The notes under the pieces were generated by a model. The model was not told where the DNA came from. It ran no database searches and saw only the letters and a list, made by a program, of their open reading frames with translations. A stretch of 64,000 nt of DNA from NCBI GenBank assembly GCA_003024785.1, contig PUQB01000043.1, forward strand, positions 798,429-862,428, given 5' to 3'. The position numbers and the translations under genes are program-made. This document shows, in pieces, positions 28,831 through 62,905 of this stretch. The stretch comes from Selaginella tamariscina (Eukaryota; Streptophyta; Lycopodiopsida; Selaginellales; Selaginellaceae). Numbering within the stretch: position 1 is the first letter of the stretch; every line of letters starts with the position of its first letter.

Positions 28831-28835
28831 TCAAT

Positions 28836-28912
28836 ACAGGGTGGCGGGATTAATCTTGCCCACCATTTCTAAGAGATAGGGAAGGGGTGGCAGGATTAAT
28901 CCCGCCACTGCT
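28836..28912. repeat. Two palindrome units of element 2
   Basis: GGCGGGATTAATCTTGCC at about 28,851-28,868 and GGCAGGATTAATCCCGCC at about 28,889-28,906, 38 bp apart, are one-step variants of the family palindrome. They mark the start of the array region that the gypsy insertion at 28,977 interrupts. Confidence 0.85.
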
Positions 28913-28976
28913 TCCCTGCCTCTTTGAATTTATGTGTGAGAAAAGATATATAGAAATTATAATATACATATACAAT

Positions 28977-33945: not shown

Positions 33946-35496
33946 CATATATATATATATATATATAAATACATGTGTGTGTGAGAGAGAGATAAATGAA
34001 TTATAATATACAGATACACATGTACATATAAATACAGGTGTGTGTGTGTGTAAGAAATAAATAAATAAATTATATTATACATATATACACACATACACAC
34101 ACATATATATGTTATGTATATATAGGAGTGTGTGTGAGAGAGAGAAATAGATAAATATATTATATTATATAAATAAACACACATATATATTTGTATATGT
34201 ATATATAAGAGTGTGGCGGGATTAATCCCACCACCATTTTAAGGCCTCCTAAAAAGGTGGCAGGATTAATCCGCCACCTTTCCAGGAGACCTTGAAATGG
34301 TGGCCGGATTAATCCGGCCACTCCTTTTAGGGCTCCTAAAAATGGTGGTGGGATTAATCCCGCCACCAGAAGGGTGGCCAGATTAATCCGGCCACTCTTT
34401 TCTAGGAGACCTTGAAATGGTGGCGGGATTAATCCCGCCACCAGAAGGGTGGCCGGATTAATCCGGCCACTCCTTTTAGGGCTCCTAGAAAGGTGGCGGC
34501 CACCATTTCAAGCATGTGTGTGTGTGATAAATAAAAAAAATACAAAAAACTTATAAAATATATATAAACATGTATATATACATACAATTGTGTGTGTGAG
34601 AGAGAGATAAAGAAATTACATATATACAATACATTCAAGAGATAGATAAAGTAATTATTATATATACAAATACACAGATACATACACATACAGTTGTGTG
34701 TGTGTAAGAAATAAAAAATAAATTATATTATACAAATACACACACATATATATATGTTATACATGTGTGTGTGTATGCGAGAGATACATAAATAAATTAA
34801 ATTATACAGATAGTATACATACACACAATATATATGTATATGTATATACAGGAGTGTGTATGCGCGAGATATATATATATATATTATATTATACAGATAA
34901 ACACACATATATATTTGTATATATATATATATATATATATATATAAGAGTGTGGCGGGATTAATCCCGCTACCTTTCCAGGAGACTTTGAAATGGTGGCG
35001 GGATTAATCCGGCCACTCCTTTTAGGGCTCCTAAAAATAATGGCGGGATTAATCACGCCACCAGAAGGGTGCCGGATTAATCCGGCCACTCCTTTTAGGG
35101 CTCCTAGAAAGGTAGGTGGCGGCCACCATTTAAGCATGTGTGTGTGATAAAAAAAAAATATAAAAAACTTATAAAATACATATAAACATGTATATATACA
35201 TACAATTGTGTGTGAGACACACATACATATACATTCAAGAGAGAGATAAGTAATTATATATATTACAAATACACAAGTACATACACATATGGTTTGTGTG
35301 TGTAAGAAATAAATAAATAAATTATTTATACAGATACACACATATATATATGTATATACATGTGTGTGTGTGTGTGTCTGTGCGAGAGATACATAAATAA
35401 ATTAAATTTACAGATAATATACATACACACACAAATATATATGTATATGTATATCGGGAGTGTGTGTGTGCGAGATATATATATATATATTATACT
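33946..35496. repeat. Microsatellite and palindrome block of element 2, left arm
   Basis: (TA)n, (CA)n and GTGTGAGAGAGATAAAT units alternate with two palindrome clusters, 34,214-34,500 and 34,950-35,115, whose units read GGCGGGATTAATCCCGCC or variants (GGCCGGATTAATCCGGCC). The block is the reverse complement of DNA at about 60,330-62,580. Apparent open frames rich in Y, I, H and T are microsatellite artefacts. Confidence 0.85.
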
Positions 35497-36838
35497 GGAA
35501 TTCTGTGTATCTTATTCAATAGTGTAGTAGTGTACATCAGAGGGTTCCTTTTGGAATGAGAAAAAGCTACCTTATTTTCTACTGCCCACTACCTCTTATA
35601 CCTAGCCTAGATCCATCTACCTTTGCCACATCAGCAGCCTGCCACGTCAGCCACCTGCCATGTCAGCCATCAGCCACATCAACCGCATGCCATCTCATCA
35701 AGTTGCAGCAAGTGGAACTCAGTCTCTCTAGGCAGCATCCAAGGAAGCATCTCCCTCTAGAAACCACAAAGGTGGTTGCCACCTCCAGTAAACGGATGCG
35801 CGCAAGCTCCCATGTCCTCGCACAATGCGGCCAAGTGCTGGCAACCACTGTTCTTCGTACACCCGATACTCCCCTATGTCGCACGTATCACGTGCTTCCT
35901 TATATATCCGGCTACTAATGAGACTAAGGTTACCACATAAATGCTATCGTTCGTTGCAGACTCCATCTATGCCCTTGAAAAAACCTCTGCATTGCGGGCT
36001 CGCCAGATCGTCCACATGGTCACCCCTCGCAAAAAATACCACTGATTCACCCAGAGTCCAGGTGGCTCTTCCATCACCTCTTGCAGTCCCCCGGGATCAA
36101 AGACCGGCCTGGTGGTCCAGCCTCCCAGGTACGCGCCATACTCCTGCTGTTGCACGCACGTGTACCACATGTTCACCAAGGCAGGCAGTCTCCCAGCCTA
36201 TTGTAGCATCATCTCCCCGACCCAATCTCTGAACCATGGTCATCGCTCTGCTCCAGACTGCTTTGGCTGCGCGACAATCCCATAGACAGTGTCTCTCGGT
36301 CTCCACTTCTCCATAGCACACACATGCGTTGCAAGGAAGTCCCCGGATGTTATCTCTAACTGCTAAACTGTTCTGCAAAAGGAGCCACATAAAGGTTTTT
36401 ATCCCACTCGACCAGTAGCCTGCCCAGAGCTCACTCCCCAATGCTTGCGCCAGCGACTGAGGTAACCCGACTCTACCCAGGTGCTCCTCCAACTTTGACA
36501 GGTGCTGCTGGCCAGCAAAAGCCTTTCGTCCCACTCGTGGTTCATAGCTAAAAAAACCATGTCCTGTTGCACTTCTCCATTTCCACATCTTCGGGTCCAT
36601 CTCCAATTCCTCCACTAGCTGATTTCTAAAGAGCATCAAATGCCTCCATTGGCCATGCTTGACTTCCGGGTCCACAGTCGGCCTCTTCTTTGCCATGTCC
36701 ACACACGCACCAAGCCAAACATCTACCAGCTCCGGGAGAGGGGAGAAGTGAATCGTGTGCGGGTCAGAAGACCGTCAGGTCCCACTTGAAAGCCGGCTCC
36801 CTCCTGAGTGTCCAAGTCAGCCACATACCATACCATTG
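35497..36838 (-). pseudogene. LINE 3' part with reverse-transcriptase zinc-binding domain
   Basis: From about 36,760 downward: SPLPELVDVWLGACVDMAKK, then WSSGIKTFMWLLLQNSLAVR and CVCYGEVETERHCLWDC, the zf-RVT pattern found at the end of plant LINE ORF2. A frameshift near 36,170 leads into LRGVTMWTIWRARNAEVF, also typical after zf-RVT. The 3' untranslated part (35,497-35,960) shows no gene. Confidence 0.8.
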
Positions 36839-36866
36839 ATGCACGTTGTAACTAAAGTGGGCATGA
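36839..36866 (+). repeat. Left terminal inverted repeat of element 1
   Basis: ATGCACGTTGTAACTAAAG followed by TGGGCATG, preceded by the duplication ATTG. It differs from the right terminus at two of 27 positions. Confidence 0.85.
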
Positions 36867-37127
36867 TACGTGAAAATGGGAATATAAAATAAATTACTAA
36901 TTAATACTTAAGTTTTAATTATTAATTAATCATTTAATTAATATGTAATTAAGCCTTAAATATTAATTAATTAATTAATTAATCCTTCAATAACCTTACT
37001 TAGTAAGGAATATTCCTAAAATATCTTAGAATATTCATATTATTCTAAAAATAGTTTACAATAATGAAGAAATACTATCAAACATAATTACAAATGAAAT
37101 CATTTTCTTATCAACATGTTAATTTTT

Positions 37128-38113
37128 TTATAAATACTTTCTTTCTATCATACAAAGAAATCTTTTCATTTTGTCTAAATCATCACTCTCCGGATTAATC
37201 AAATCATTTTGGTCAATATCTTGATGTTGTTGCCACCACTTAACACTCTCACGAATGCAATTGGGAGTTGCCATCCTTGTTAATACATAAGATGTGATAA
37301 GAGAGGTCTGCATAAAGGCTCATCTAAAAACTGACGTTCCTTAAGAATAATATTATAAAGCGCCCGGTTGCTATCCTTCATTTTATAAAATTCAATATCA
37401 CGAGAAAGAAAAGCTTCAGGAAATGTATGATACGGTGGATACTGCTCACAAAAATTTTCGAGATTCTTCTTTCTGAGGCACGTATCCAAGTAGTTCACTA
37501 GCTCATCCATGATATCGATATCAGAATATGGATCGAAAGTGATTGGATGAATACAAGCAATGTTTTGGTTGAGCATAGCCTTCTGAGGAGAGTCGTCTAC
37601 TACTAAGATATGTGCATTCTTCGTTATCCTTAAGCGACTGATCTCCCCATGAGTCCCAATTATTCTTTCATTCTTGAAGAAGTATGGCTTGCTTTCCTTT
37701 CTTATATTGTGAAATTCGAGAGGTTTATAACACATTCGCTGGTCAAAAATCCAATCTTTACGAATCACCTCTTCTGCAACACTACAATGTTTCTTAAGTA
37801 AACTCAACAGCGGTGTTAAGTTATGAATCTGCATGCATGACCAAATCCCCACAAGCGCACCCATCTCCTTAAGCTTTTGAAAGAGACGATCCAACCCTGG
37901 ACGAAAAATAATATCATATCGAAATTTACCATGACAAGGAATGAAATCTCCTTGTTTGATTTCTGTTTTTCTATCCTCGGGCCTTTGTCGATGAAGCAGA
38001 ACACCATTGACATCCAACAACACAATATGGCCATGAGTAACATGAGATAGCGTTGCCTCTTGAATACTTTGCAAATCACTTGTTTGCTCCCTTTCACATT
38101 TATCCGTTGCCAC
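37128..38113 (-). CDS. FCP1/NIF-type HAD-fold protein, element-borne
   Basis: The open frame from the ATG at 38,113 has 277 codons. HAD motif 1 is LLDVNGVLLH (residues 32-41), with the second aspartate of D-x-D replaced by N as in some plant paralogues. Motif 2 is ALVGIWS (86-92) and motif 3/4 is VVDDSP (171-176), the FCP1/NLI-interacting-factor layout. The nucleophile-position aspartate is kept, so activity is possible but reduced function is likely. A one-base deletion near 37,300 ends the frame early; the homologous C-terminus continues in the next frame to 37,128. An upstream coding-like exon (38,120-38,250) is conserved in element 2. Its 3' end lies about 290 bp from the left terminus. 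Confidence 0.7.
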
Positions 38114-38571
38114 TATTCGTTGCCTATCCCTTCATCATTTAATTGTACATCATCCTTACAAGATTCAGATATTGCATGCGCTGAAGAAATTGATTTCGGA
38201 ATTGAAGCCAATAAAAATGATGATGAAAAACTGAAGTGGCCCCCATGGTAACGATGTTTTGAGCTGCATTATTATCCATTTCCTGCATGAACTCTGTCAT
38301 TCTGACATGTGGCACAAGAAATTGTCGCCAAACCCCTCTCTTACCTCATGGCAATGCTGAAAATCCATGTTCTCAATTATTTCATTACATCTGCAAAATG
38401 ATAATTAGCTGACCTTAAAATTATCAAGGTATATTATTTACCTTGTTAATGTGTGACCCATGTTTGAACTAAAAGCTTCATTAATCCTTGAGAATTTATT
38501 TTCTGTACAAATATAAAAGAAATATACAAAAATGCCTTATGTTACACTCATTTACAACTATTCATCACTTA
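38114..38571. other. Interval between HAD and methyltransferase genes
   Basis: 38,120-38,250 (minus) holds a probable upstream exon of the HAD gene reading SIPKSISSAHAISESCKDDV. The rest (38,260-38,571) is AT-rich presumed 3' untranslated DNA of the methyltransferase gene, conserved in element 2 at 27,190-27,410. Confidence 0.5.
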
Positions 38572-41500
38572 TCAATTCATTATCAATTCTTCTTCGCTAT
38601 TACCTTCTGAATGAGGCGAAGAAGGTCTAAGCCGCTTGTGAGATGGTTCAAGATCTTCTGCATCTTCTATTGATGTTTCCATGGGTCCTGGAGTGTGCGA
38701 ATGTTCTGTACTCCTCGAGATAACTTCCGGTCTAATATCTGATTGATGTTCGTTCTCAGACTCCGAGATTGAACCAGATTCACCTTCAGAGCTATCGCAC
38801 TTATCTGGAGGGAACTTTCTCAAATACGCCTTTATGGATTCGTTGGGGTACTCAGTTGAGACCCAATCTATCCACTTGTTCAGGTCCTCAACCATGGTCT
38901 TATCCTTTCAACGGCAAACACACATGTATGCCGAAGGTAACACTCCTTCAAGACGGACCCCCTAGTGCAGTAGTCAAAAACCCACGCATCACTGTGAGGA
39001 CCCCTGATCAAGTTGACGATGCTCCGTGCCGCTTGACTTGTAATGTTTGGATAACGTACATTGCCGAATACGTCACTCATACCTATCGGTGTATCGGATG
39101 GAGGTTCAGGGCCGTTGGAGTGCAAACAGATGCCTGGCCAGTCATTTGGAAGCTTGAAATTGTTTGGCGCATTCCTAACAACCAAGTGAACAACGTATCA
39201 ATGCACTTGGGATTAGCATCGTTCATATAAAATCCTGTCCAACGATGTCTATTCTTCTTGGCGAAGGCGAAGGCAAAAGTATCGGTGACATGAGCAAGAA
39301 TCAAGAAATAAATACCTGAAAAAGTAGGTATCAGTGAAGAGCGCAAGCATGAATTCAATAATAAATACCTTCTATGTATATGCTTGCACGGCTAAGTTTC
39401 TCCACCAGATCCTCTAGTGCCCTATCTGTCGAAAGATTTTTTGACACCCGCCGATCCATCACGAACAATTGAAACGGTTTCCTACAAGCAGTGATGTTAC
39501 CCCATAAAGTCTCCGAATCTAACAACAAACATCTGTAGGGCTTGTCGTGATTCGTAGCATCCTCCTTTATAAGGTTCAATTCGGTTCTCCGCTGCTGAAG
39601 GACTGCCATAAGAGAAGGCGTCATCCCAATGTTCTCCTTTTTGGCGTTGGCGTGCAATAGATTCTTGCCTAGATCTTCCGATTGGTTCACCCATTCGACA
39701 AGCATATCATCGTTCGTCACATGCAAATATTTGCTACCTCTTCATATGTTGAAGTCGAGGTCCAACCCAGTTTGTGGCAGTGTATTCCCAACCACTCCTT
39801 GAAATGCCTGACCGTCTTCAACTCCATTGCCTTGAGATGAAAAGGAGAGGTTGGGCTGCTGTTATTAATTTGTAGTTTGCCATCGATCACCAAATCAGCC
39901 AAGACTTCCATCTCCTCCATCGTTGTTCCATTTAAAGGCTTCAACCATGTGAGCTTGAAATCGTTGTCTACATCCTTTGTAGATTGAACAGACTTAGCCT
40001 TCGGCGTCTTACTGGGTTTCTTTGCAGACTTTTCTGAGGGCTCCCCTTCACTTGTCTGCTTCTTCTTCAGTGTTCCTTTTGAAAAGGATTCCATAATCCC
40101 CAACCATTTGGCAAAGATCCTATCTTCGGGGCAAGAAATCAACATCATCAGAAAGATGTTTCCTTCCCGCCCACCTGGGCAAAATCAACTGCTGCAATTT
40201 CTTCAACTCTCTGAGGAAAAAGACAGATTAATATACCGGCGAGATAAATCCCGCCCAAACAATTTGCTTACCCGGTATTCCGCAGATTGTGTATTCCCTG
40301 CGGTAGCTCTTTGTGGTCGCTGAAGAGATTCCCACACGGCTCGCGTGTGTTTAAACTTCTCCCATATTTTGCTGTTGTAGTGGTTGGTGTCGGCAGCGTC
40401 CCATTCCGCCGATAACTTATGGTACTGCTCGATTGTGAGATTCGGCTTAGCTAAAAACGCCGATCTTTTTGTCAGCTTCTCACGGGTATGCTCGGAAAGT
40501 TTTGTTGCCATCGTTCCTTTGTTGTGTTCATCGAGAAGTCGTTGGGCTGCCGTTATTGTGTGCTGGCCACTAATGATGTAGTACTTGATAGATCTTTTAT
40601 TCTCCGTCTGAATCTTCATGAGTTGTTCTGGTGTTGTGATCCAGACTTTGTCAGCACCCTTCCTTCTTTCATAGTATGGACACAAAACAGCATTATGTGG
40701 AACGGTATAAGAATTGTCGTCCTTCATCTTCTCCATGAGCTCAGCTACACGTTCCTGGTTGAGTGGCCTGTAATTGAAGTTTGGGTTGACGCTGCAATAT
40801 TTAACCCTACAAGGATAAATCTTATCATCCAACATCATTTCCTTGTGACTTATTGCAGCATGAGATGCCACAGGTGCAGCTGACAAAACGATTGATGATT
40901 TTCTTTTGCGATCCGAATCAACATGTGTGATCCCCGACTGCAGCTGTTCTAGTGTTCTCGGCACACTCTCCAGCTCCCGAAGCTTCCTAAGCAAATTGAA
41001 CGTGATCTGTAGAGAACCTGAGACCGAGCCACCTTCTCAATCTCCCTTATGATGTCGCTGTGTTCTTCTTCAATGTGAAGAGGGAAGATTGCTCCACTTG
41101 CTGATTTTCTGTATTGTGAAGCAATATCTCCTGACAATACACCTACTCGATGAGTCTGAAGATCTTCGAAGTAGACATCCAGATGGATCCCCTCCATAGA
41201 TGGGCGTTGAGTTGAAGAAGAACTCCAAGGTCAACATCATTAGTGAACACGTGAACGTCATTATCCACAAGTCGACAAAACCACCCGAAATTAATGTTGT
41301 AACTGACGACCTCTGGATCCGAGAACGTGACATTGGATGGAACAAGGCATATCTGTCGAGCATCGTCCAATCTGGGTTCGCAGCCTGCTTTCGGGTGCTT
41401 GACTAGCGAATCTACTTTCCATTGTTTTGCTTGTCCATGAGATGTGACAGAGGTTAATTTGACAGCAACCATGGTTGCTCCAATGCGCTTCCCATTTATC

Positions 41501-41707
41501 TTAAAATATGGCCAAGTTGATTCCAGAATCCCCCTGCCCATCTCTTCTCCTGCTCTTGTCTTTAATGTCACCTCAATTCCACATCTGAATACAAAAATGA
41601 TTAGTTCAAGTATCCGAGTATAACAGATTTTATTTTAATTCTTACCCAGAATTTGACGACGACTCCATACTAATGACTCGATCTCCTTGTTTGATCAAAT
41701 CGTCCTT
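38572..41707 (-). pseudogene. ParB-like domain plus DNA-methyltransferase-like gene
   Basis: The first recognisable exon is 41,707-41,646; its donor GTAAG and the acceptor at 41,586-41,585 join in frame to a long exon. The ParB-like part has FNYRPLNQERVAELMEKMKD (40,778-40,720) and YYIISGQHTITAAQRLLDE (about 40,583-40,527), matching the ParB/Srx fold where a G-x-H-R-like motif binds nucleotide. After a lysine-rich linker come SPTSPFHLKAMELKTVRHF and CLLLDSETLWG, perhaps a lost catalytic D-P-P-[YFW]. Then, at 39,000-38,900, ARSIVNLIRGPHSDAWVFDY, CTRGSVLKECYLRHTCVFAV: a motif I-like D-x-F-x-G-x-G region at the C-terminus, the beta-class order seen in bacterial ParB-methyltransferases. An acidic tail ends at 38,572. 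Single-base frameshifts occur near 41,206, 41,020, 39,740, 39,210 and 38,900. Confidence 0.6.
40237..40256. repeat. Palindrome copy inside a methyltransferase-gene intron
   Basis: GGCGAGATAAATCCCGCC lies between a donor GTAAGC at about 40,275 and an acceptor CCTCAG at about 40,205 on the minus strand. It is a variant of the array palindrome and is conserved, more decayed, at about 28,260 in element 2. Confidence 0.6.
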
Positions 41708-41810
41708 CTGCAAAATAATACACTATAAATATAAATTATATAAAAACGCACACACACTTGTATAAACCCGAATATACAAAAATAATACACAGAGAGAAGT
41801 AGACGTAATT

Positions 41811-41898
41811 AACTGTCCGAAGCTCACATTTGTGTTAGTGCAAAAGAAAGATAACATTTCGTTTTAGAACCACCACAAATGTGAGCTCTGGACAGTTT
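41811..41898. repeat. Stem-loop upstream of the methyltransferase gene
   Basis: AACTGTCCGAAGCTCACATT then TGTG at 41,811-41,834 pairs with CACAAATGTGAGCTCTGGAC then AGTT at 41,874-41,897 with two mismatches and a loop of about 40 bases. It stands about 100 bp upstream of the first recognised exon of the divergent methyltransferase gene and just before the palindrome array. Confidence 0.7.
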
Positions 41899-42007
41899 TA
41901 CATAGATTCCTAGCTTTTACTCGAAATATTATGATAAGATGATAAAAGTAAATAAAATGAGATATGCAACTTATATATACTAATACACATATATATTCAC
42001 ATGGAAG

Positions 42008-43368
42008 GTGCGGCGGGATTAATCTCGCCACCCCTTCAATGCCTCCTGAAAGAGTGGGCGGGATTAATCTCGCCACCTTTCTGGAGGCCTTGAACGGGAG
42101 TGCGGAATTAATCTTGCCACCCTTCTCGGTCTCAGAGAGAACTGGGCAGGATTTATTTCTCACACCCCTTCAGTGACTCCAGAAAGGAGGCGGGATTAAT
42201 CTCGCCCACCATGTAAGGGATGGTTAAATGAATTCCCACCCTTCCCAGTCCTCCATTGGTATGTTGTAAACCTTCTACGTCTCAGACAGAAACGTTTGGG
42301 ATTGGTCCGACTCACCAATGGAGAAAAAGGAAGGGTGGCGGATTCATTCCTCCAACAGGCATTGAAGACTCGGCGGGATTAATCCCGCCGCCCAGGGCCT
42401 TCACTCGGTCCCTATGCGGCGGGATTAATCCCGCCGGACGCCAATTCCCTGCGCGGAATCGGGCGGGATTAATCCCGCCGCCTAGGCACTTCAGGCAGGC
42501 CAATGGCGGCGGGATAAATCCCGCCCGATTCCGCAGGGCATGCGTACGCGGCGGATTAATCCCGCCCCCATGTAAGGGATGGTGAAATTAATCCCACCAC
42601 CCTTCTCGGTTCCCTCCATTGGTATTTTGTTAAACCTTCTCCGTCTCAGACAGAGTTAGTCGGGATTGATTCAACATACCAATGGGGTAATGAAGGTTCG
42701 GAGATTAATCTCGCCACCGGGTAATGAAGGTTCGGAGGCTAATCCCGCCGCCCTCTCGTAAATCATGCGCTCACACATATATATTGGCTGCGGCATTTTT
42801 GAACAGGGATGGGTGGGGGCGGGATTAATCCCGCCGCCCAGGGAATTCACGCAGGACATGAACGGCGGGATTAATCCCGCCGCCCTCCGCGAAGGGCATG
42901 AGCGTGGGGCCGGATTAATCCCGCGTTCATGTCCTGCGTGAATTCCCTGGGCGGCGGGATTAATCCCGCCGCTCTACGACAAACCGAAGAGCGGCGGGAT
43001 TAATCCTGCCGCCCATTCCCTGTAAATGCACTACGCGGAATCCGGCGGGATTAATCCCGCCCATTAGAACCTTCACACAGGCCATTGCCGGCGAGATAAA
43101 TCCCGCCGCATTCCGCGCAGGGCATGGATGAGCGGCGGGATTAATCCCGCCGCCGAGGCCCCTCACGCAGGCTATGGGCGGCGGGATTAATCCCGCCGCT
43201 CTTCGGTTTGTCGTAGAGCGGCGGGATTAATCCCGCCGCCCATAGCCTGCGTGAAGGGCCTCGGCGGCGGGATTAATCCCGCCGCTCACCCATGCCTGAA
43301 GGGCCTCGGCGGCGGGATTAATCCCGCCGCCATGGCCCCAACTATATAGCGGCGGGATTAATCCCGCC
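42008..43368. repeat. Palindrome array A, about 27 units
   Basis: The unit is the perfect 18-bp palindrome GGCGGGATTAATCCCGCC or a near variant, usually flanked by GC/CG extensions. Exact copies sit at 43,134, 43,180, 43,220, 43,266, 43,311 and 43,351, spaced 46, 40, 46, 45 and 40 bp; earlier intervals (42,370-42,550 and 42,818-43,000) are also mostly 38-47 bp. The first units (42,008-42,240) are more degenerate. Intervening DNA is about 20-28 bp. Open frames through the array encode repeating G-G-I-N-P-A or A-G-L-I-P-P and are not genes. Confidence 0.95.
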
Positions 43369-43379
43369 GCTCGAGGGGC

Positions 43380-44062
43380 TTAGCGAGATAAAAACACACA
43401 CATATATATGTGTGTGTGTGTATATATATGTATGTATGTATGTATGTATAGGAGTGTACGTGTGTGTGCAAGAGATAGATAAATAAATAAACTTATACAG
43501 TACTGGTACACCTAATATATGTGTGTACATAGGTATATATATGTGTGTATATGTATATCGTGTGTATGCGTGTGAGCGAAACAAATAAAATCATACAGAT
43601 AAACAAACACACACACACACATATATATATACACAGGAGTGTGCGTGTGTGTGCAAAAGATAAAACTAATAAATAAATAAAATTATACAGATAAACACAC
43701 ACATATATATGTGTGTATATAGATATATAATCTATAGAGAAAGAGAGAGAGTCTGTGAATATATAAGCATATATATAAACTAGTGTTGTATGTATGTATA
43801 TATGTATATAGGTATATATATATGTGTATATGTATATTGTGTGTATGCGTGTGTGAGCGAAACAAATAAAATCATACAGATAAACAAACACACACACACA
43901 CACATATACATACACAGGAGTGTGCGTGTGTGTGCGAGAGATAAAACTAATAAATAAATAAAATTATACAGATAAACACACACATATATATATGTGTGTA
44001 TATTATGAATATATAAGCATATATATAAACTAGTGTTGTATACTATTTGTTAATATGCATTG

Positions 44063-44101
<39 letters not shown>

Positions 44102-44214
44102 GTGTGTGTGTGTGTGTGTGTGTAAAGCAGTGCGCGTGTGTGTGGGAGAGATAGATCAATAAAAAAAAATTTACAGATACTGGTACACATAATATATATA
44201 TATATATATATATA

Positions 44215-44258
<44 letters not shown>

Positions 44259-44437
44259 GCAAGATCAATAAAAAAAATTTACAGATACTGGTACACATAA
44301 TATATGTTATATCGTGTGTATGCGTGTGTGAGCGAAACAAATAAATCATACAGACACATATACATACACAGGAGTGTGCGTGTGTGTGCGAGAGATAAAA
44401 CTAAGAAAAAAAATTATACGCACACTCCTATACATAT

Positions 44438-44468
<31 letters not shown>

Positions 44469-44480
44469 GATCTCACCTGT
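43380..44480. repeat. Microsatellite block of element 1
   Basis: (TA)n, (GT)n, (CA)n and GAGATAAAT units, with an approximately 300-bp segment repeated at about 43,600-43,760 and 43,880-44,040. Homologous to the microsatellite arms of element 2. No gene. Confidence 0.9.
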
Positions 44481-44843
44481 GTGCACAGCCGCCGCCGCCG
44501 ATTTCACAGCCGCCGCCTCTTGAAACCCTAAGAATATACCTAAACCCTAAAGGAATTAAATATATATATCAACCCTAATAGAATATTCCTTCTGAGAATA
44601 TACTTAAACCCTAAAAAGAATAAAATATAGATTCGCCCTAAACGAATATTCTTTCATTATATTATTAGCGCGTGCGTGTGTGTGGGTGTATCACATACAC
44701 CTCAAAAATATAAATCATGCAGGGATTTAACATGTGTGTGTCCATGAGAGTGTTAAAGTTTCATGTGTACACATTGCATATATTAATACACATAATATAT
44801 ACATACACACGTGTATACACACAGACATACACACATATTACAT
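44481..44843. other. Conserved central segment shared with element 2
   Basis: Begins with CCGCCGCCGCC-rich DNA, then GAAACCCTAAGAATATACC and GAATATTCTTTCATTATATT, followed by (GTGTGTG) and a TATCACATACAC motif. The same order is found at 58,600-58,800 and, inverted, at 59,930-60,200. No gene. Confidence 0.6.
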
Positions 44844-44872
44844 GGGTTTAGGGTTTAGGGTTTAGGGTTTTG
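44844..44872 (+). repeat. Interstitial telomere-like repeat
   Basis: About four copies of the plant telomere unit TTTAGGG in tandem, within element 1 DNA. Confidence 0.9.
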
Positions 44873-45289
44873 GATTTAGGATGGATCATGCATGGTGTGT
44901 ATGTATGAGAGAAGAGAGAGTGTTGAAAAATTATTTTTGTACACATTGCATATATTAGTACACATATATACTTACACATATTATACACAGATATACATAC
45001 ATAGTATATGAGAGAAGAGAGACAGTACATATTAATATGGATCATGCATGGTGTGTATTATACACACAGACATACATACATATTAGTACATAATATTAGA
45101 GAGACCGAGTACATATTATAGATCATGTATGGTGTGTATGTTTGAGAGAAGAGAGACAGTACATATTAATGTATGAGAGAAGACAGAAAGTACACATATA
45201 TACATACAGAGTACACATATATACATGCACACGTGTATACACACAGACATACATACATATTACATGAGTAAATTCATTGTGTTACATAT

Positions 45290-45332
45290 TAGGGTTTAGG
45301 GTTTAGGGTTTAGGGTTTAGGGTTTAGGGTTT
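45290..45332 (+). repeat. Interstitial telomere-like repeat
   Basis: Six consecutive TTTAGGG units. Single telomere-like words also occur at homologous places in element 2 (59,010-59,170 and 60,140), so the motif belongs to the element and does not mark a chromosome end. Confidence 0.9.
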
Positions 45333-46575
45333 GCTCCCAACAAGCTTAATATAAATATTACACATGTAAATTCAATGTGTTACATATACACAGATTGAGT
45401 ACATATATCATACATGCGTTGAACATGATGTTTTCAATAAAGAAGCAACATATTTCTTCAGTTTGGTTTAGGGTTGTGCATGTGTGTGCATATGTGTTTT
45501 TGTAAGTTCTTGTAATGCGTGTGTAAATTTATGATTGTGTTTATATATGTGTGCAAAACAAACATCGAATAATTAAGAAAATAAAATTAATTACACACTA
45601 GGAACATATTTTAAATTATACATAATAATATATGATTTTATCTAATATATAGCCATATATAGTTTTAATAATATATTAATTTAATATTGATAAAAAGGTT
45701 TAACATTGAAATATTCTTGAAATAATAAGAAATTAATTGAGAAAATCCCATTAATATATACAAATGTAAATTAAGTACTCAAATAATTAACTAAATTAAT
45801 TATCATAATCATGTTTAATATTGGAATATTCTTGGAATAATAAGAAAATAATAAAGAATATCCCATTAATATAAAGAAGATTAATTACTCAAGTAATTAA
45901 GGAAATGATATTAATATATATATTATTAAAACTATATATGACTATATATTAGATAAAATGATGTATTATTATGTATAATTTAAAATATGTTCATAGTGTG
46001 TATTAATTTAATATTGATAATAAGGTTTAACACATGAATATTCTTGAAATAATAACAAATTAATTGAGAAAATCCCATTAATATATACAAATGTAGAATA
46101 ATTACTGCAATAATTAAGAACAAGACTAATTTAATTATGATAATCAGGTTTAATATTAGAATATTCTTCAAATATTAATAAAATATTAAAGAATATCCCA
46201 TTGATACTAGGAAATGAAAACTAAATACTCGAGTAATTAAGAAAAATAATAATAATAAACAGACTATGAATATATTTTAAATGATACATAATAATATATC
46301 AATTTATTTATTGTATAAGTATATATTTATTATATATATATAATATAAATATACTTGAATACTAAGAATGTAGAATATAGTCTAAAATTTCGTAATATTA
46401 AACAGCTTGAATCACTTGAATAACATTAAATGCAATTTTAAAATACTCATTGGAACTGGAGAGTATATATGTCAGAGTGTCGGATATTTGTGTCAACTCA
46501 TCTTAAATTTTATTTTCTGTTCTTTTTAAAAATTTTGAATTTCTGACATATGTATTGTCGGTCTGACATATAAAT
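45333..46575. other. AT-rich centre of element 1
   Basis: No gene. It contains several loosely repeated blocks of TTTAATATTGGAATATTCTT-like sequence (45,700, 45,810, 46,010 and 46,150) and stretches that are reverse complements of one another (45,600-45,680 against 45,910-45,990). Confidence 0.6.
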
Positions 46576-47762
46576 TTGAAAATGCATTTAATTTCCCACT
46601 CAAATTCAGATCTGGTTCTTTCTCCGGCAAGGGTTTCTTCATTTCTGTATTTTTCACTCTTTAGATCTTCTTTTTTCTTCATAGTGATCATCTCAGGAGC
46701 GAGATTAAATTGGGTGCTATTCTTTATAGGAAAGCACGGCGCCTTCAGTGCTGTTTACAAGTAAGTATTATAAACAAATTTAAAAATACTTATTAAGATT
46801 CACTCTCTTACATTCTCTCTTAAAATTACAATTTAGGGGTTTAGAAATGCATTAGGATTATAATATATTCCGTTAGGGATTTATCACGTTTAAATATCCT
46901 TTTAACTTAATATTCTAGGTTAACCGGGGCGGCGGGATTAATCCGGCCATTTCTTTTTCGCCTCTTTGAAGAAGTGGCGGGATTAATCCCGCCACCATCT
47001 CCCGGGCAATGCTTCTCCGCCACTGAAAAAGAGTGGCGGGATTAATCCCGTCGATAACCTTCTCAACTGATGAAGAGTTACCAGAATTTATTAGAAAGAG
47101 TTGTCGGCGGGATTAATCCCGCCAACCATTTTAGGAGGCAGGGAAGGGGTGGCGGGATTAATCTCGCCACCACTTCACTGTTTTAAAGATTTGGGGACAG
47201 GATTTATCCCGAGATCTCTTTGAAATCATAGTTTTGGAGAGAGTTATGTGCGGATTTAATCCCGCCACCCATTCCCCGTCGTAAGAATTGTGGGCGGGAT
47301 TAATCCCGCCTTGGACTCCCTCCGACGAGGAAGAGCCGGCGGGATTAATCCCGCCGGACTCCCTTCCTCGTCGGAGAGAGTCGGCGGGATTAATCCCGCC
47401 GGACTCCCCCCGAGGAGGAAGAGGCGGCGGGATTAATCCCGCCGGCTCTTCCTTGTCGGAGGGAGTCCAAGGCGGGATTAATCCGCCGCTCTCTCCGAGG
47501 GGGAGTCGGCGGGATTAATCCCGCCGACTCTCTCCGAAGGGGTTGAGTCGGCGGCGGGATTAATCCCGCCGACCGTTCCTCGTCGGAGGGATTCGTGGCG
47601 GGATTAATCCCGCCCATCAGTTGTATTAATCAAACATGAGATATTATCTCTAAACATAATTATGTATTATTGCATATGCATATTATTAAGTAACCGTAAT
47701 TCAGATTTCTTAAAAATATTGCATAAACAGATATCATAAATAATACAATTATTTATGTGCAG
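46576..47762 (+). promoter_or_regulatory. 5' region and possible first intron of the DUF7869-like gene
   Basis: TTTACAA|GTAAGT at 46,761 is a strong donor and TTATGTGCAG ending 47,762 a fair acceptor. In one frame the sequence before the donor (LGAILYRKARRLQCCLQ) joins the coding region without a shift. If real, array B sits inside a 1.0-kb intron. The start codon would then lie upstream and is not identified. Otherwise the array is simply promoter-proximal. Confidence 0.35.
46928..47615. repeat. Palindrome array B, about 15 units
   Basis: Units of GGCGGGATTAATCCCGCC or variants occur at roughly 46,930, 46,975, 47,033, 47,106, 47,150, 47,199, 47,250, 47,293, 47,338, 47,382, 47,426, 47,472, 47,508, 47,554 and 47,598. 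From 47,293 on the spacing is 36-46 bp, mostly 44. Spacers are variants of one theme (GGACTCCCTCCGACGAGGAA and its reverse complement). It stands directly upstream of the DUF7869-like coding region and may lie in its first intron. Confidence 0.95.
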
Positions 47763-50700
47763 GACAATATGTTTAATACTGGAGATAAAGTATGTCTTCT
47801 TCGGAACAACGAGATAGTTGGCACTGGAACTGTGGAAGTTCGAGATAATAATGCATCATGTCACAATATTTCCCAAGGATCTTGTGTGTACGTATGGGTG
47901 AACACCATTTTCAAGCATGTTGAGGTTCTGGGAATGGAATTTGAGGAGGGTTCTCCTGTATTGTGGAATTTGGATGAAGTCAAGGCTGACACAAAATATG
48001 CAGAGTCACAAACAAATAGTAGCACGAGTTTACCAGATGATGGCTTGCCTGCTGTGATGGATGAGGTGATTCTCTTTCTTCGTGAGATTGAAGTCGGAAG
48101 AGGCATCATCACAGCTATAAATCCAATGGAAGCAGTGTCAGAAGAGAAACTAGGGTCCGACTTCGTGGGTGTAGTTGTGACAGAGGTTTCACCTAATGGC
48201 ACATTGTATCCTGGATCCCTCGTGAGGTGGCGAACATCTGAATTAAGACGGCAAGATGGTTCAACATATTCTGGGTTGGATTTCAATAATAACAACCCGG
48301 AAGAACAACTCATATTTGAAGAGGTTCCTTGCATTGGTCCTATTGTAAGAAAAAGGCGATTCATGGGTTGTAGATCTTCCCCTGCAAGTTTCAGCAAGAG
48401 GGTAAAGATGGATCCTACATCTTCCGAAAGTGTTACGAGCATTTCCACGATTGACTGTTGCAAGAAGAAGTGTTGTCAGATGGCAGACCGGAATGAAATT
48501 ACCCAATGTAGACATGTCTTTCGTATGCTCACCCAAAAGCAAAGGCATGAGTTTGTATATGCTGCACTAACTGGGTGTATTGATGGAATGGCCTCGGACA
48601 CAGGTTATCAGAGTACATCCATGGTATTTAATAAGGTGGCCATCTGCTTCAAAGCTTGGTACAGTATATACGGGATCCCAAAGACCACGTTCTACCGTCG
48701 GAGGGATGAGTGGCTAGATGGAGCGCGAACCTCAGTTCATGGGAACACTGCTTGGTCAAAACCCGCTCTCACATCATGGCAGCCATAGAGATACTCAAGG
48801 CTTTTGTGGAAGCAAATGCAGACAGGATGCCTCACAAATGCCGAACCACAAATGCAGGGGTCAGGGAAAATCTCAAGGTTTTACCTTCAATCTACACTCA
48901 ATTGAAACTGTGTGAACATGTGAACAAGTGCCTCAGTTTGATGGGGCTCCAAGCAATCTGCACTGGTACCTTCAACAACATATGGAATACTCATTTTAAG
49001 GATGTGGAGATTGCAAAACACTCTAGCTTTTCTAAGTGTGACACTTGTACATCATTGAAGGCTGCAGAGGCTTGTGCAAAAACCTTGGTGGAGATCACTA
49101 CCATTCAAAGGAAGATGGAGGCCCACATGATTGCACAACAAACTTGTCGGTCTCAGTACTATGCACACCGCATGCTTTCTGTGTCACGCCCATCAGAGTA
49201 CCTGTGCTTGATCCATGACAAGATGGATCATTCAAAGACCAGCATTCCAAAGCTCTTTGCAACACCAAAGTGCCTTGGAAATGTCATGAAACTTCCGATT
49301 TCTTTAACAGGTGTGCTAACACATGGACACGGTTGTGAGTCATATGGACACTTTTCACTTCCACATTGGTCTAGCGACTCCAATTTCACTATTGGGTCGT
49401 TAGCCATGTGTTTCAGAAACCTTGAAGCCCACTCACAGACAAGTCCTATCAGTGATCTCAAAGTGAAGAAACAACACCTTCAACCTTTACATAATGCTCT
49501 CATGAACACGTCTGCACTTGAGGCTACTTGGGAATATGAGAGGCATTGTCAGCAACCTGCACAAAAAACAGATGGCCCTGTTGAGAGTTCAGGTTCAGTG
49601 GAGGGATCTAGCTCAAATAGTGTACATGTGTCCTCAACATCAAATAAGCTTCCTCGTCATTTGCTTTTACAGATGGATAATTGTGCAGGCGAGAACAAAA
49701 ATAGGTAAATCATTTTACTTAAGGGTTTCTCAAGCTCATACTTACTTTTATTTTCTAGATATGTGCTAGCATACTTGTCAATGCTTGTTGCCAAAGGTGT
49801 GTTTGAAACAATCACGCTCAGTTTCCTTATGGTTGGTCACACTCATGAAGATATTGATGCGTTCTTCAGCAAGGTCTCCAACTCTACAAAAAGGACAAGT
49901 GCACTTACCTTACCGCATATGATGAATCTTTTTGAAAATTGCATCTCCAAAAAAAGTTGTGCTTTGCTTGTGACTGAGGTGCCAGACTTCAAAAAATTTC
50001 TCAAGGAGTATATAAAAGAAGGGAGTGATTCTTTAGTTGGTCACCTTGTGCCGCTACAATTCTTTTTCTCCATACGAGATGGTATACCTATTATGCAGTA
50101 CAAGTTACGGCCATCAGAGCAGGAGTGGTTACCGAAAGAGGGCTTAATGCTCTTCAAAAGTGGAGAGGATGGAAAGCCACTTCTCCCAGAAGGACAACCA
50201 GACCCTATTCCATTGAGTGCCCAGCTCAAGGAACAAGAGGTTATTATTGATGGCATCAAAAAATATGTGGCATGGGTTCAAAAATCGATGCCAAAGAATT
50301 CTGATAAGGCAACTGGTTACTCAGAACTATATAAGCATGTGGTCAACTATTGGGAGACTGTTGTTCGAGAGTTGGAAGGGCCTACTGTCACAAGTACAGA
50401 ATTGCAACACCCTTTCTGGCCTAAAACAAGGTGGCGAGAGGAGATTGAAATGACATCACTGAGCACAGACGACATAGAAGCCAGTAGTGATGTGGAAGTG
50501 CAAACCCCACACTTTGTTGGACAAAGGAACCAAAAACCTAAAGCATACTTTGATTGCTGCAAGGATCTTCAAAAACTAATGATGGTTCTCATTACTCCAG
50601 ATGCGTCATATAATCAGCCTATTTGGATGGGTCAAATTATCGACACACCTGAAGTAATCACAAAAAAGTATTGTTAAGGTTGCATGGTTCAAACCACAAA

Positions 50701-50884
50701 AAAGGCGACACGAGAAGGAGAGCGAAAGATATAATGGATGCCTAGAGAAAACATGGTCTCCCAATCAAAAAGACCCAGCATGTTTTATAAATGTTAAATC
50801 CATTCGATATGGGTGGATGTCAAGAAGCGTTGATAAAGTCACGATTAACAAAACTGCAAGGGAATGTATGTTTTCTGAAGCTTA
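47757..50884 (+). pseudogene. DUF7869-like protein, candidate transposase of the family
   Basis: The coding region from 47,757 reads through to 48,788, shifts frame near 48,755, continues to 49,704, and after a 54-bp intron (GTAAAT to TTTCTAG, 49,705-49,758) joins in frame to 49,759-50,677. A shift at an A-run near 50,667 leads to a C-terminal end at 50,884. Conserved blocks are LIHDKMDHSKTSIPKL (about 49,208), LLQMDNCAGENKNR (about 49,663) followed by YVLAYLSML, and FLMVGHTHEDIDAFFS (about 49,825): three acidic motifs spaced as in an RNase H-fold nuclease. N-terminal parts include a cysteine cluster (CCKKKCC) and a FYRRRDEWLDG motif; the C-terminus has WMGQIIDTP and VKVAWFKP, resembling a chromo/BAH-like barrel. 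Transposase role is inferred from position and motifs. Confidence 0.6.
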
Positions 50885-51391
50885 AAGCAATTACAAAATT
50901 ATAAAATATCATATATTTAATATTCATAATTATTATAAACTCTTTAATAATAGTACCAAATTGTATACTTAACTATATAAATTTAAAAAATGATATGGAA
51001 GATTGACTATATTATTATAGGATTTTATATATATATTATTACTACTACAAATTTTTAATTAATAATGTTATATTTAAATATTAATATTTTAATAACAACA
51101 TCAATATTTATATAATGTACCTCTTATGCTCTTCCTTAATTGTTATATTAGGCAATATATTATATAATTTAATACATTCTACTTTTTAATGTTATTAATT
51201 TTTGTTCAATGAATGCTATAATTTATTAAAGGGTAGAATACAAAATAGAATATTCTAAAGAATATTCTCTTTTCAAACATATATTCTAAAGAATATTCCT
51301 TTAATATTAGAAAATGCTAATTAAATAGCTAAAATTGCTAATTATTAGGAAATGGGACTATAGCCATGCCCATTTTAGTTACAACTTGCAT
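50885..51391 (-). repeat. Right subterminal region and terminal inverted repeat of element 1
   Basis: AT-rich DNA from the gene stop to the terminus. The last 27 bp are the right inverted repeat (ATGCAAGTTGTAACTAAAA then TGGGCATG on the minus strand), and ATTG follows at 51,392. The whole segment recurs inverted at 26,359-26,920 in element 2, with an AGAATATTC-rich stretch (51,240-51,300). Confidence 0.85.
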
Positions 51392-53013
51392 ATTGTGCCA
51401 ATGCGGCACCAATCCCCCACACGAGTCTCACGTTCCGGCCACAACCCCTGAAGCCTTGTAGCACCTGTTCGCGTGCCGACAACATGATGTTGATTGCTCT
51501 GACCTCGCTGTCCGTGAGTCGCACCTCACCCCTGTCCGATTCCCATCTACAAATCCATGCTGAGATTCTGTCCGGCTGCATATCCAGCTCCCGAAGCTGG
51601 CCCACTGTGCGCAGCCTTGCTGCATGCCAACGTCTATATATCACCTTCACTCCTTGCGGCATTCGCTCATCCCCGAGAGATATTCCAATGCCTACCGGGT
51701 GCACCAACTCGTGAAGAAAAAGGAAGGGAGACTAACTCCTCGATCCGTGATGGCGGCACAGGTACAAGGGCCACACGGAGCTCCATCCAATACCTCAGCA
51801 ACGTCCCACTGTATGAATCACGAGCCATTGGAATCTTGAAGGGTGGCATACTGAAAATCTAGCGAGGGTCTTCAGCCCACTGAACTGCTGCTCCCGTGGA
51901 GGACCGAAGAGGCTTGACTTGCAAACACAATGCACGGAGCATTACCTTCCACGGCTGTCCACCTGGGAAGAAGCATCTTACCATCATCTTCACCATTAGT
52001 GCACGTGCTGCTGGGCCTGGGATATCAGTCCAACTCCTCCTTTGCTCGTGGGCGGCACAAGAATCCCATCGCACACGAGCTTGGTACCTCTGCTTGCGAT
52101 TTGAGCCCTTCCAGATATATACTCGAAGCAGCTGCTCGATTTCTTTCAAGTCCATCGCGTTAAGACTCCAGACGCCGGTATAGAACCAAAGGCTACCCAG
52201 AAGTACGGCATTGGCCACCACAAGCCTCGCGGGAAGGGAGAGTGGACGGTTGCCCCAACTACACATATGCGTAAGAAGCCTCTGTAGGATGAATGCGCTC
52301 TGTCGATTTGTGTCATACCGGTCTCCTAGTTGAAACCCTAGGTATCTCGTTGTTCTCCCCTGTTCCACCCATACAAAATCCCAGTCAGCTCCCCAATCAG
52401 GACGCACACATCCACTTAGCCAAACACCACGGGATTTATGCCAATTCGTCTTGCCTCCAGCCGCAAAATTAAACCGATCAAGCAACTGCTTCACCCTATC
52501 CAGATTCTCAATTGTTCCTAACACCAGTAACCCAGTGTCATCTGCGAACAGGCTATCAAGAACAGTCCGTTCTCGTGGTGGGTCGAGGTCACGTAGTGGC
52601 CCTTGACACTCAGGCAGCGGGATCCCCCTAGGCTTGGCTAACCGATCATGATGCATGTACACATGTAACGCTTCCGCCTGCATCAAAAAAAGGTACGGGG
52701 CAAGCGGGCAGCCTTGCCGAACTGACCTAGAAAGACGGATCGGCTGGCTCATCCATCCGTTAATGACCAAACGACTTGTTGACTGCCTGTAGAGCCTGGC
52801 CCTCCATCTCACAAACCTAGCCGGAAAGCCTAACTGTCTCATTACAAGCTCCAAAAAGCGCCAATCCACTCGGTCGTAGGCCTTCTCCCATCTAGCAACA
52901 GCAAGCAGTATGGATCCGGGAGGCTCCCTACCCACTCTCCAGCCAAGATCATCGTCATCACATTCTCGTAAAGCTGTCGCCCTTGAGAAACCCATTTTGT
53001 GCTTGAGAGACAA
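51392..53013 (-). pseudogene. LINE reverse transcriptase (ORF2, middle)
   Basis: The frame from 53,013 contains ARWEKAYDRVDWRFLELVM, then SVRQGCPLAPYLFLMQAEAL and the catalytic SLFADDTGLLVLG (F-A-D-D) and LDRFNFAAGGKTNWHKS, matching LINE RTs. A frameshift near 51,860 leads to a second frame (VHPVGIGISLGDERMPQGVK) running to the element 1 junction. The start of RT lies in the endonuclease frame; the shift between them falls near 52,990. Confidence 0.85.
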
Positions 53014-58105: not shown

Positions 58106-61100
58106 TTATATATATTATATTAAAGATAAACACACATATATATTTGTATATGTATATATAAGAGTGTGCGTGTGTGAGAGATAAATAAATAATAAATTAT
58201 ACATATACAATCACATGTGTTTGTGTGTGTGTGAGAGATAGATAAATAAATCTAGTATACAAATACACACACACATATATATGTATATGTATATACATGT
58301 GTGTGTGCAAGAGATAGATAAATAAATTATAATATATAGATATTGTATATGTATGTACGGGTGTGTGGTGCAAGAGATAAATAAATAAATTAAATAATAC
58401 AGATGCACACACATATATTATGTATATGTATATACAGGAGTGTGCGTGTGAGAGAGAGATTTAACCTTGCTGCACCGCCACCTTTAAACCCTATTTGCAT
58501 CATCATGCCTTTTTACACCACCACGCCTTTTAGCCTTCTTGTGAGAATGGATCTATGAATATGTGATGCTGCCGCTCTCAAATCTTTCGCTGTCTCTCTC
58601 CTCTGCCACCTTGAAACCCTAAGAATATACCCTAAACTCTAGAATCAATAATATATATATTAATCCTAAACGAATATTCTTTCATTATATTATCAATAAG
58701 TTTATTGTGTAAGTGTGTGTAAGTGTGTGGGTGTATCACATACACACAATCATGCAAGGGTTTAACATATGTGTGTCTGTGAGTGTATTAAGTTTTCACG
58801 TATCATTTAAAATATATTAATTGTGTGTATATTACTATTATTTTCAATTTATTTCAATGTTTCTTTTGTACACATATATAGACACAATAAAAAAATTTAC
58901 ATATACATGCACACGCATTAAAAGCACCCATAGAACACATATGCACACACATACACACGCCGATGAGTGGATCATAATATAAATAATGTTAGGGGTCTAA
59001 CATTTAGCTTTGTGTTTAGGGTTTACGGTTTAAACCCAAACCAAGCATTTATCGTTACACACACTCTACAATGGGGCTTACATATACACACACGAACTAT
59101 TTATAGACTCAACACACGTGTTAAAAACATTCAATTGTGGGACTTAGTGTTTAGGGTTTAAACTCTAAACCAAGTTGAGTGTATAAATTTATGTTTAATG
59201 TTAAAAGTAAATGTATATTAAATATTTGTTAAAATGTGCATGGATTTAATTTCTATGTCTTAAAGATTATGTAATATACATATTATATCTTATGTGCTAT
59301 AATTGCTTTAAAATATGTTTTAATAACACTATGTCATTTTAAATTACAATAGGGTAAAATTCTATACAATTTTAATGTATGAGCAAATTATATTTGCATT
59401 TTTAAAATTAATTTTTTAAAACTAATTTATAAATCACTAAAATGATTTGTGATATTAATAACTACTTGACTATAAACAATTCTTTATGTGTGTTTTCTTA
59501 TGTACTTTTATAAGAATAATAAACTTTTTATACAGATATTAAAAGTAATGATATGTGACGGTGATATATATTTAATATTGATAGTGTTTACACAATTTTA
59601 ATATTAGCTTATATATTATCTTACCATCTATGTGGCATACCGAGATAAATAATTGATTTGGAATAATCATTGTTGGGTCACCATGCCCAGCTCAGGAGAT
59701 TTGTTGCTTCTTTATCGAAATAATTATGTTAAACGCATGTATGATCCATGTACTGTGCGTATTGTATGTAACACATTCACACATGTAATATGTATGTATG
59801 TCTGTGTATACATGTGTGTATGTATAGATGTGTACTAATGTATATAATGTATGTAAAATTAATTTTTCAACACTCTCTCTCTCTCTCTCACACACACCAT
59901 GCACTGACGTGACACATTCACATATGTACTATGTGTGTATATATTTGTGCATGTGTGTATTGTGTATACGTGAAAACTTAACACACTCACAGACACACAT
60001 ATGTTAAACCCTTGCATGATCTATATTATTTGTGTGTATGTGATACACCCACACACCTACACACACAAACCAATAAACTTATTGATAATATAATGAAAGA
60101 ATATTCATTTAGGGTTAATATATATATATTAATTCTAGGGTTTAGGGTATATTCTTGGGTTTCAAGGCGGCGGAGGAGAGAGGCGAAAGATTTGAGAGCG
60201 GCGACACTACATATTCATAGATCCACTCTCACAAGAAGGCTGGTGTAAAAAGGCGCGGCGATGCAAATAGGGTTTAAAGGCGGTGGTGCAGCAAGGTTAA
60301 ATCTCTCCTCACACGCACATTCTGTATATACATATACATATATATGTGTGTGTATCTGTATTAATTTATTTATCTATCTCTTGCACACACACACCCCTGT
60401 ATATACATATACAATATCTAAATATTATAATTTATTTATCTATTTCTCGCACACACACACATTATTACATAACATATATATGTGTGTATATGTATATTAT
60501 AATTTATTTTTTATCTCACACACACGCACTCTTATATATACATATAAAATATATATGTGTTTTAATATATATATATAATATATATTTGTTGTGTATGTAT
60601 ACTATTTGTATAATTTAATTTATTTATGTATCTCTCGCACAGACACACACACACATGTATATACATATTATATGTGTATAATATTTTTTTTATTTTTTAC
60701 ACACACACACAAACTGTATGTGTATGTACTTGTGTATTTGTATATATATTATATAATTACTTTATCTCTCTCTTGAATGTATGTATGTGTGTATTTGTAT
60801 ATATGTAATTTCTTTATCTCTCTCACACACACAATTGTATGTATATATACATGTTTATATGTATTTTATAAGTTTTTTATATTTTTTTTATTTATTCACA
60901 CACACATGCTTAAATGGTAACCGCCTTTTGGAGCCCTAAAAGGAGTGGCCGGATTAATCCTGCCACCCTTTTGGTGGTGAGATTAATCCCGCCACCATTT
61001 TAAGGTCTAGAAAGGAGTGGCTGGATAATCCGGCCACCCTTCTTTTAGTAGCGGGATTATCCCGCCACCATTTTTAGGAGCCCTAAAAGGAGTGGCCGGA

Positions 61101-62585: not shown

Positions 62586-62587
62586 CC

Positions 62588-62905
62588 AATGATGCTGATT
62601 CAGATGTATTAATACGGTTGTTCGCTTAGTTATTAGGAATATGCCAAATAATTTCAAACTTTTAAATGACTGGCCAGGCATTTGTTTTCACTTCAACGAG
62701 CCTGAACCACCATCAGAGGGACGTATTCAACAATGTACGTTATCCAAATATTACAAGTCAAGCTGCATGGAGCATTGTCAAATTTGATCAGGGGTCCGCA
62801 CAATGATGCATGTGTTTTTTACTACTGCACTAGCGGATCCGTTTTGGAGTGTTACCTTCGAGATACATGTGTGTTTGCCGTTGAAAAGGATAAAACCATG
62901 GTTGA
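62588..62905 (+). pseudogene. Methyltransferase C-terminal fragment, element 2
   Basis: Matches element 1 from 39,218 down to about 38,880, inverted: NMPNNFKLLNDWPGICFHFN, then decayed motif I sequence, then CVFAVEKDKTM in a frame where element 1 has lost one base. At the word CCATGG (62,897) it jumps to sequence equivalent to 38,246, a deletion of about 630 bp at a shared 6-bp word. Confidence 0.7.

Follow-up and report, generated by a model that had tools for sequence, protein, structure and literature searches.

Transposons of the Sola superfamily offer the closest described parallels to the element reported here. Sola elements generate 4-bp target-site duplications (TSDs), encode a DDD transposase, carry terminal inverted repeats (TIRs) of 11-1,124 bp, and in some cases exceed 15 kb in length (PMC10741241). 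They are present in a moss (PMC10741241, PMC9033089), and substantially more so in Azolla than in Salvinia (PMC6786969). For a choanoflagellate Sola1 the values 32 and 4 are given, which appear to be the lengths of its inverted terminal repeats and TSD (PMC6875170). Sola1-1_Ec32 of the brown alga Ectocarpus, 21.5 kb long, has a ParB/methyltransferase gene antisense to its transposase gene, and its authors go only as far as suggesting that such accessory proteins bind and modify their own element (PMC12477816). Here we describe a 14.55-kb element in a 64,000-nucleotide stretch of the lycopod Selaginella tamariscina (GenBank assembly GCA_003024785.1, contig PUQB01000043.1, positions 798,429 to 862,428, hereafter the window), which combines features of this kind with dense arrays of an 18-bp palindrome. 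The gene content of the genome fits a green plant, probably a streptophyte: there are 26 matches to the chlorophyll a/b-binding family PF00504, one of these proteins matches LHCII chains in the Protein Data Bank (PDB), where entries such as 5zji are from plants, with E down to 1e-162, TTTAGGG repeats are present, and what looks by eye like a plant-type PPR protein is adjacent to one LHC gene.

A precedent for such arrays comes from the VANDAL transposons, which are Mutator-type elements. In Arabidopsis, VANC21 binds arrays of one short motif, located both 5' of VANA21 and within VANB21 and VANC21 introns, and causes methylation to be lost (PMC5735166). As argued below, the Selaginella element is probably a recently amplified giant cut-and-paste transposon, its best placement being the Sola superfamily, with a DUF7869 transposase and an accessory protein that may bind the element's own DNA.

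Ends, target sites and genomic copies

The element spans positions 36,839-51,391 of the window with ATTG on either side, and ends in TIRs of 27 bp that are identical at 25 of 27 positions; further inward, similarity between the ends is limited to short, scattered stretches. Both the coordinates of the inverted ends and the flanking ATTG agree with the first-pass annotation, which had been made from the window's letters alone and had proposed a DNA transposon that has its own termini and a duplication of 4 bp. A genome search with the end sequence bore this out: the terminal 18-mer ATGCAMGTTGTAACTAAA occurs 2,725 times in the 300.7-Mb assembly (1,397 forward and 1,328 reverse), and a reversed-pattern control 0 times. 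Three complete copies measure 14.55-14.73 kb.

Of 19 end pairs in the right orientation, drawn from the genome list of end matches, nine have an exact 4-bp TSD. Adding the window copy together with C444 and C549, complete copies selected because their transposase frame is open (duplications ATAC and AATA, respectively), brings the count to 12 of 22, versus 2 of 462 cross-pairings; C358 and C504, for which the sequence stretch taken holds one end only, were left out. The twelve duplications (ATTG, ATGT, TAGA, AAGG, CGTT, CTAT, ATAA, TGGT, AAGA, TATC, ATAC and AATA) have no common sequence, and the target is therefore not a fixed tetranucleotide. What speaks against this reading is that 10 of the 22 copies lack an exact duplication, two of these ten by a one-base difference; we suspect that the missing duplications reflect joins of near-identical copies in the assembly, or recombination between copies.

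The insertion itself can be read from its target. Read on the minus strand, the right flank contains the endonuclease and reverse-transcriptase part (PF03372, PF00078) of a long interspersed nuclear element (LINE) and the left flank its zinc-binding reverse-transcriptase part (PF13966), and because the LINE domains are divided in this way between the two flanks, the insert splits a LINE. When the flanks are joined with a single ATTG, 40 places in the genome match. In 38 of them the match continues through the joint, and two of these 38 cover the full 148 bases at 97-98% identity; the other two of the 40 are the two halves of the site in the window itself, whose overlap is exactly the 4 duplicated bases. 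These homologous sites without the insert are direct evidence of insertion, and with the many copies they support the reading as a DNA transposon that has termini of its own and duplicates 4 bp on insertion. A further argument of the first-pass annotation, that a LINE reading frame stays open across the joint once the insert and one ATTG are removed, is weak when taken alone: the joint is spanned by frames of at most 164 (plus) and 136 (minus) codons with one ATTG, 151 (minus) with two, and 133 (plus) and 117 (minus) with none.

The 2,725 ends correspond to about 1,360 copy-equivalents, and the 27,128 palindromes described below, at about 22 per complete copy, to about 1,230. At 14.6 kb each, 1,300 copies would make up about 6% of the assembly, a figure that assumes full length, and older relatives carry palindromes too. 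The gene-bearing ends of the three complete copies are 98.1-99.1% identical, with gap openings outnumbering substitutions, and the accessory-gene region of seven copies differs by 2-47 pairwise substitutions in about 3,400 columns; since the copies are so similar, the amplification is recent. Some copies are close neighbors: on C1 the end of one element lies about 220 bp from the start of the next, and on C91 two left ends are 3.35 kb apart (L091 and L092 are among these cases). The features of the window copy are as follows.

36835..36838, unstranded: left TSD, 4 bp, ATTG
36839..36865, plus strand: left TIR, 27 bp, found family-wide in the genome end count
37280..38300, minus strand: HAD/NIF-like phosphatase gene (PF03031, E 1.5e-11), from Pfam
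38572..41541, minus strand: accessory gene, 3 exons, about 950 amino acids, introns 40,271-40,211 and 39,368-39,316
40238..40255, unstranded: isolated palindrome, 2 mismatches, inside intron 1 of the accessory gene
42012..43371, unstranded: palindrome array 1 (GGCGGGATTAATCCCGCC, spacing mostly about 45 bp), 5' of the accessory gene
43402..46930, unstranded: spacer between the arrays, AT-rich/microsatellite, with TTTAGGG repeats inside
46931..47614, unstranded: palindrome array 2, 5' of the transposase gene
47769..50742, plus strand: transposase gene (DUF7869, PF25273), exon 1 from the ATG at 47,769, intron 49,705-49,758, exon 2 from 49,759 to at least 50,742
51365..51391, minus strand: right TIR, 27 bp, from comparison of the ends
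51392..51395, unstranded: right TSD, 4 bp, ATTG

A DUF7869 protein as the probable transposase

The element was initially described as carrying a three-gene cargo, consisting of ParB-like/methyltransferase, HAD and DUF7869-like genes. Pfam confirms the HAD/NIF phosphatase and DUF7869 matches, but the DUF7869 protein, of about 1,000 residues and with three conserved acidic motifs, is probably the transposase rather than cargo. DUF7869 is the sole Pfam family above its cut-off in this protein, and a profile search gave 16 relatives. The motifs HDKMD, LDNC..ENKN and VGHTHEDID are invariant in eight aligned homologues, and the window copy has all three, the second as MDNC..ENKN; in a structural model, the order of strands and helices fits RNase H, as judged by eye. 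Two observations pull the other way: the most distant homologue, P0003, has LDNASGDNKN instead of LDNC..ENKN, and a structure search with a transposase homologue (model predicted local distance difference test score (pLDDT) 62.3) returned no DDE transposase among the 50 matches listed by either program.

The window copy itself is frameshifted near 48,755. Across this region a 660-codon frame is open in 38 of 121 scored copies (out of 6,137 first-look candidates), and 101 of the 121 are 100% identical over the aligned part.

Probable placement in the Sola superfamily

The first-pass annotation knew of no named superfamily with this set of features, which is probably wrong, as Sola elements have a 4-bp TSD, a DDD transposase, in some cases sizes above 15 kb and, in Ectocarpus, an antisense ParB/methyltransferase gene. 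In the Selaginella family the duplication is seen both in the 12 of 22 exact TSDs and in the 4-base overlap at the empty site, and TIRs of 27 bp and lengths of 14.55-14.73 kb fall within the ranges given for Sola. On the strength of the 4-bp TSD, the DDD-like motif set of the probable transposase, the size, and an antisense layout as in the Ectocarpus Sola1-1, we provisionally place the element in Sola, with Sola1 as the most likely subgroup, a placement made from features and not from homology to any Sola protein.

Like Sola1-1_Ec32, the element is giant, has one gene antisense to the probable transposase gene, and is placed in a superfamily that makes 4-bp TSDs. Differences are evident as well: the antisense gene of Sola1-1_Ec32 is described as ParB-like with an N6A/N4C methyltransferase, domains that our tests did not detect in the element here, which lies in a plant-like host, is 14.6 kb long, and has a NIF-type phosphatase gene and two palindrome arrays; arrays go unmentioned in the portion of the Ectocarpus description available (PMC12477816). 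With the plant Sola elements of the moss Physcomitrium and the fern Azolla it shares the 4-bp TSD and TIRs of the short-to-long range, and its acidic motifs suggest a DDD transposase like theirs, whereas those elements are mostly 2-9 kb, and the accessible parts of the reports do not describe accessory genes or arrays (PMC10741241, PMC9033089, PMC6786969).

The alternative closest to this placement is a new superfamily defined by the DUF7869 transposase, Sola-like in TSD length only. Its attraction is that DUF7869 is unmentioned in the open-access literature searched, that the Pfam name gives no link between DUF7869 and Sola, and that features rather than sequences were compared with Sola. We nevertheless regard it as unlikely, given that TSD length, the DDD-like motif set and size all point to Sola, which is known in a moss and in Azolla, and whose Ectocarpus member Sola1-1 has an antisense ParB/methyltransferase gene. 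An assembly artefact is countered by the homologous sites without the insert. That the size of the family and the TSD mismatches are largely products of assembly seems very improbable: in its favor, small gaps exceed substitutions between copies and 10 of 22 pairs have no exact TSD, but 2,725 ends, 12 matching TSDs of 22 and 38 insert-free homologous sites would be hard to obtain by misassembly. Kolobok and piggyBac elements duplicate TTAA, and are ruled out by the varied, non-TTAA duplications. A viral or Polinton-like element was rejected, as neither viral hallmarks in the scanned open reading frame (ORF) pieces nor relatives in viral contigs were found. Ginger elements, which use a Gypsy-like integrase as transposase (PMC10741241), were likewise rejected, with no integrase match in the scanned ORF pieces and DUF7869 alone above the cut-off in the transposase.

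Palindrome arrays beside both genes

The 18-bp palindrome GGCGGGATTAATCCCGCC has 27,128 exact copies in the genome, and its reversed control 0. The three complete copies of the element hold 38, 41 and 40 sites within 4 mismatches of it, 22, 21 and 22 of them exact, whereas single-base shuffling of the middle 6 kb gives 0.02 or fewer on average. Most of these sites fall into two arrays, one about 5.2-6.5 kb and the other about 10.1-10.9 kb into the element, and 26 of the 35 within-array steps in the window copy are 40-50 bp. Array 1 ends about 470 bp upstream of the first Met of the accessory gene and array 2 about 150 bp upstream of the transposase ATG, while the single extra site inside the accessory gene, with 2 mismatches, is at the matching place in the window copy, C444 and C549. 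Of the 100 palindromes heading the genome list, all from contig C1, 82 are located inward of an exact element end by no more than 16 kb; for random positions on the same span the share is 6.6%. Site number varies between copies, and the arrays thus seem to expand and contract.

From these observations we infer, with moderate support, that the arrays are protein-binding sites. Palindrome positions within the arrays are 87-96% identical and their 14-bp flanks 35-43%. Choosing the palindromes by similarity, with up to 4 mismatches allowed, raises the first of these figures, and sections of the arrays consist of simple 45- or 88-bp tandem duplications, both of which weaken the case. The spacer between the arrays contains telomere-type TTTAGGG repeats at 44,844-44,880 and 45,289-45,332, and a run of at least 4 exact units is present in the window copy and not in C444 or C549.

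The accessory gene

The majority sequence of seven copies, from which L093 was left out as it does not align there, resolves the accessory gene into three exons with GT-AG introns. The gene is antisense to the probable transposase gene, in a position and orientation that fit the Sola1-1_Ec32 type. Judged from motifs, a stretch of exon 1 (NPNFNYRPLNQERVAELMEKMKDD ... YYIISGQHTITAAQRLL) resembles ParB, and the last exon (VFDYCTRGSVLKECYLRHTCVFAVEKD) resembles the end of an N6/N4 methyltransferase. The ParB/methyltransferase reading of the first-pass annotation therefore agrees with motifs judged by eye, but database and model comparisons gave it no backing.

These comparisons, together with the state of the catalytic site, form the case against such an identity. 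Methyltransferases of this kind carry a DPPY-type catalytic motif, which would fall at LLLDSETLW (DSETLW) here, suggesting an inactive methyltransferase; the sole older window copy that covers the place has TETLW. At E<=10, Pfam gave no match to the accessory protein, ParBc included, and the ParB/methyltransferase reading found no support in PHROGs, among 5.8 billion proteins (7,995 candidates scored), or in a search of the PDB with exon 1. An hhalign comparison with ParB gave a probability of 0.24%, with 16 of 60 shuffles scoring as high and the reversed sequence higher; the AlphaFold2 model was unusable (pLDDT 34.9), and ParB CTPase motifs were not seen by eye. We thus treat the ParB/methyltransferase identity as a lead, one that takes its weight from the parallel with Ectocarpus.

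What might bind the arrays

In the mechanism that we propose, the DUF7869 DDD transposase would cut at the 27-bp ends and join them to 4-bp-staggered, sequence-unspecific target sites, while the antisense accessory protein, ParB-like with a degenerate methyltransferase-like part, would bind the 18-bp palindromes upstream of both genes and in its own intron, and in so doing would mark or de-silence its own family only, in the manner of VANC. We suggest tentatively that the binder is the accessory protein encoded by the element, with a role in self-recognition and anti-silencing. In its fullest form the proposal is somewhat doubtful: the 27,128 copies of GGCGGGATTAATCCCGCC would be the cognate sites of a ParB/methyltransferase-type protein, made a binding-only reader by its degenerate methyltransferase motifs, and self-recognition would keep both genes active or adenine-marked and would have driven the burst to about 6% of the genome.

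The resemblance to VANDAL21 (Hiun) and VANC21 of Arabidopsis lies in dense, element-specific arrays of a short motif that precede the transposase gene and recur in introns of accessory genes, and in a repeat number that varies between copies, while the motif there is YAGTATTAY and not an 18-bp palindrome (PMC5735166). VANC is not known to be related to the accessory protein described here. This parallel is one of arrangement, and we do not claim membership in the VANDAL/VANC system.

A different binder has a serious, if less than even, chance of being correct: the arrays could be binding or enhancer sites for the transposase or a host transcription factor rather than for the accessory protein. 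Many transposases bind internal repeats, the transposase gene here has one array immediately in front of it, and no DNA-binding domain was detected in the accessory protein. Less easily explained by such sites is their position, as the arrays are about 5 and about 4 kb inside the ends and not subterminal, with one array upstream of the accessory gene and one more site in its intron. Palindromic sites of 16-18 bp and a ParB-like protein also resemble parS and ParB of the bacterial systems (B. subtilis Spo0J and relatives), the ParB-like stretch being recognised by motifs, so that accessory protein and arrays might be a partition or replication module maintaining an extrachromosomal element. We consider this highly improbable, since no ParA or replication protein was seen among ten ORF pieces scanned with Pfam, no ParB CTPase motifs were apparent by eye, and hhalign against ParB did no better than shuffles; the sheer count of 27,128 sites is a further difference from ParB-parS.

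Phosphatase gene and other relatives in the window

The remaining gene has a PF03031 match of 44.7 bits against a cut-off of 21.8, and in the window copy its frame is in pieces upstream of 38,113. HAD enzymes normally carry DxDx(T/V); the stretch at 37280-38113 reads LLDVNGVLL, in which the second catalytic Asp appears to be Asn. The NIF-type phosphatase is possibly a captured host gene that is carried along.

A second copy sharing cargo and palindrome arrays, as announced in the first-pass annotation, is partly recognizable at 26,359-28,930 as an older, diverged and deleted relative in the opposite orientation, with its right-end TIR at 26,359. Where aligned, its DNA is 82-92% identical, and pieces of the accessory gene, with stops, are 48-70% identical in protein. 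Two palindrome-like sites stand beside it. The larger palindrome cluster is at 34,215-35,090, where GGCGGGATTAATCCCGCC is mixed with the variant GGCCGGATTAATCCGGCC, with no piece of an element gene turning up next to it when the window was searched at protein level. A third, old relative, inverted, occupies 60,947-64,000 with palindromes, methyltransferase-like pieces and a NIF phosphatase (45-63% identical), its left terminus seeming to fall beyond the window.

Conclusions

DUF7869, a domain of unknown function, gains a likely identity as a transposase from this element. No description of a Sola-type element with such arrays, or of a DNA target site for the ParB/methyltransferase accessory class, was found in the open-access literature searched, parts of which were available only as excerpts. 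To our knowledge, GGCGGGATTAATCCCGCC would be the first DNA target proposed for that class. Transposons with ParB/methyltransferase accessory genes have been reported from algal genomes, and the Selaginella element offers an explicit candidate target for a protein of this kind, 27,128 times in the genome and upstream of both element genes. If the proposed role of the accessory protein is true, it would add to VANC a second system of anti-silencing or self-marking, evolved independently and in a plant-like genome.

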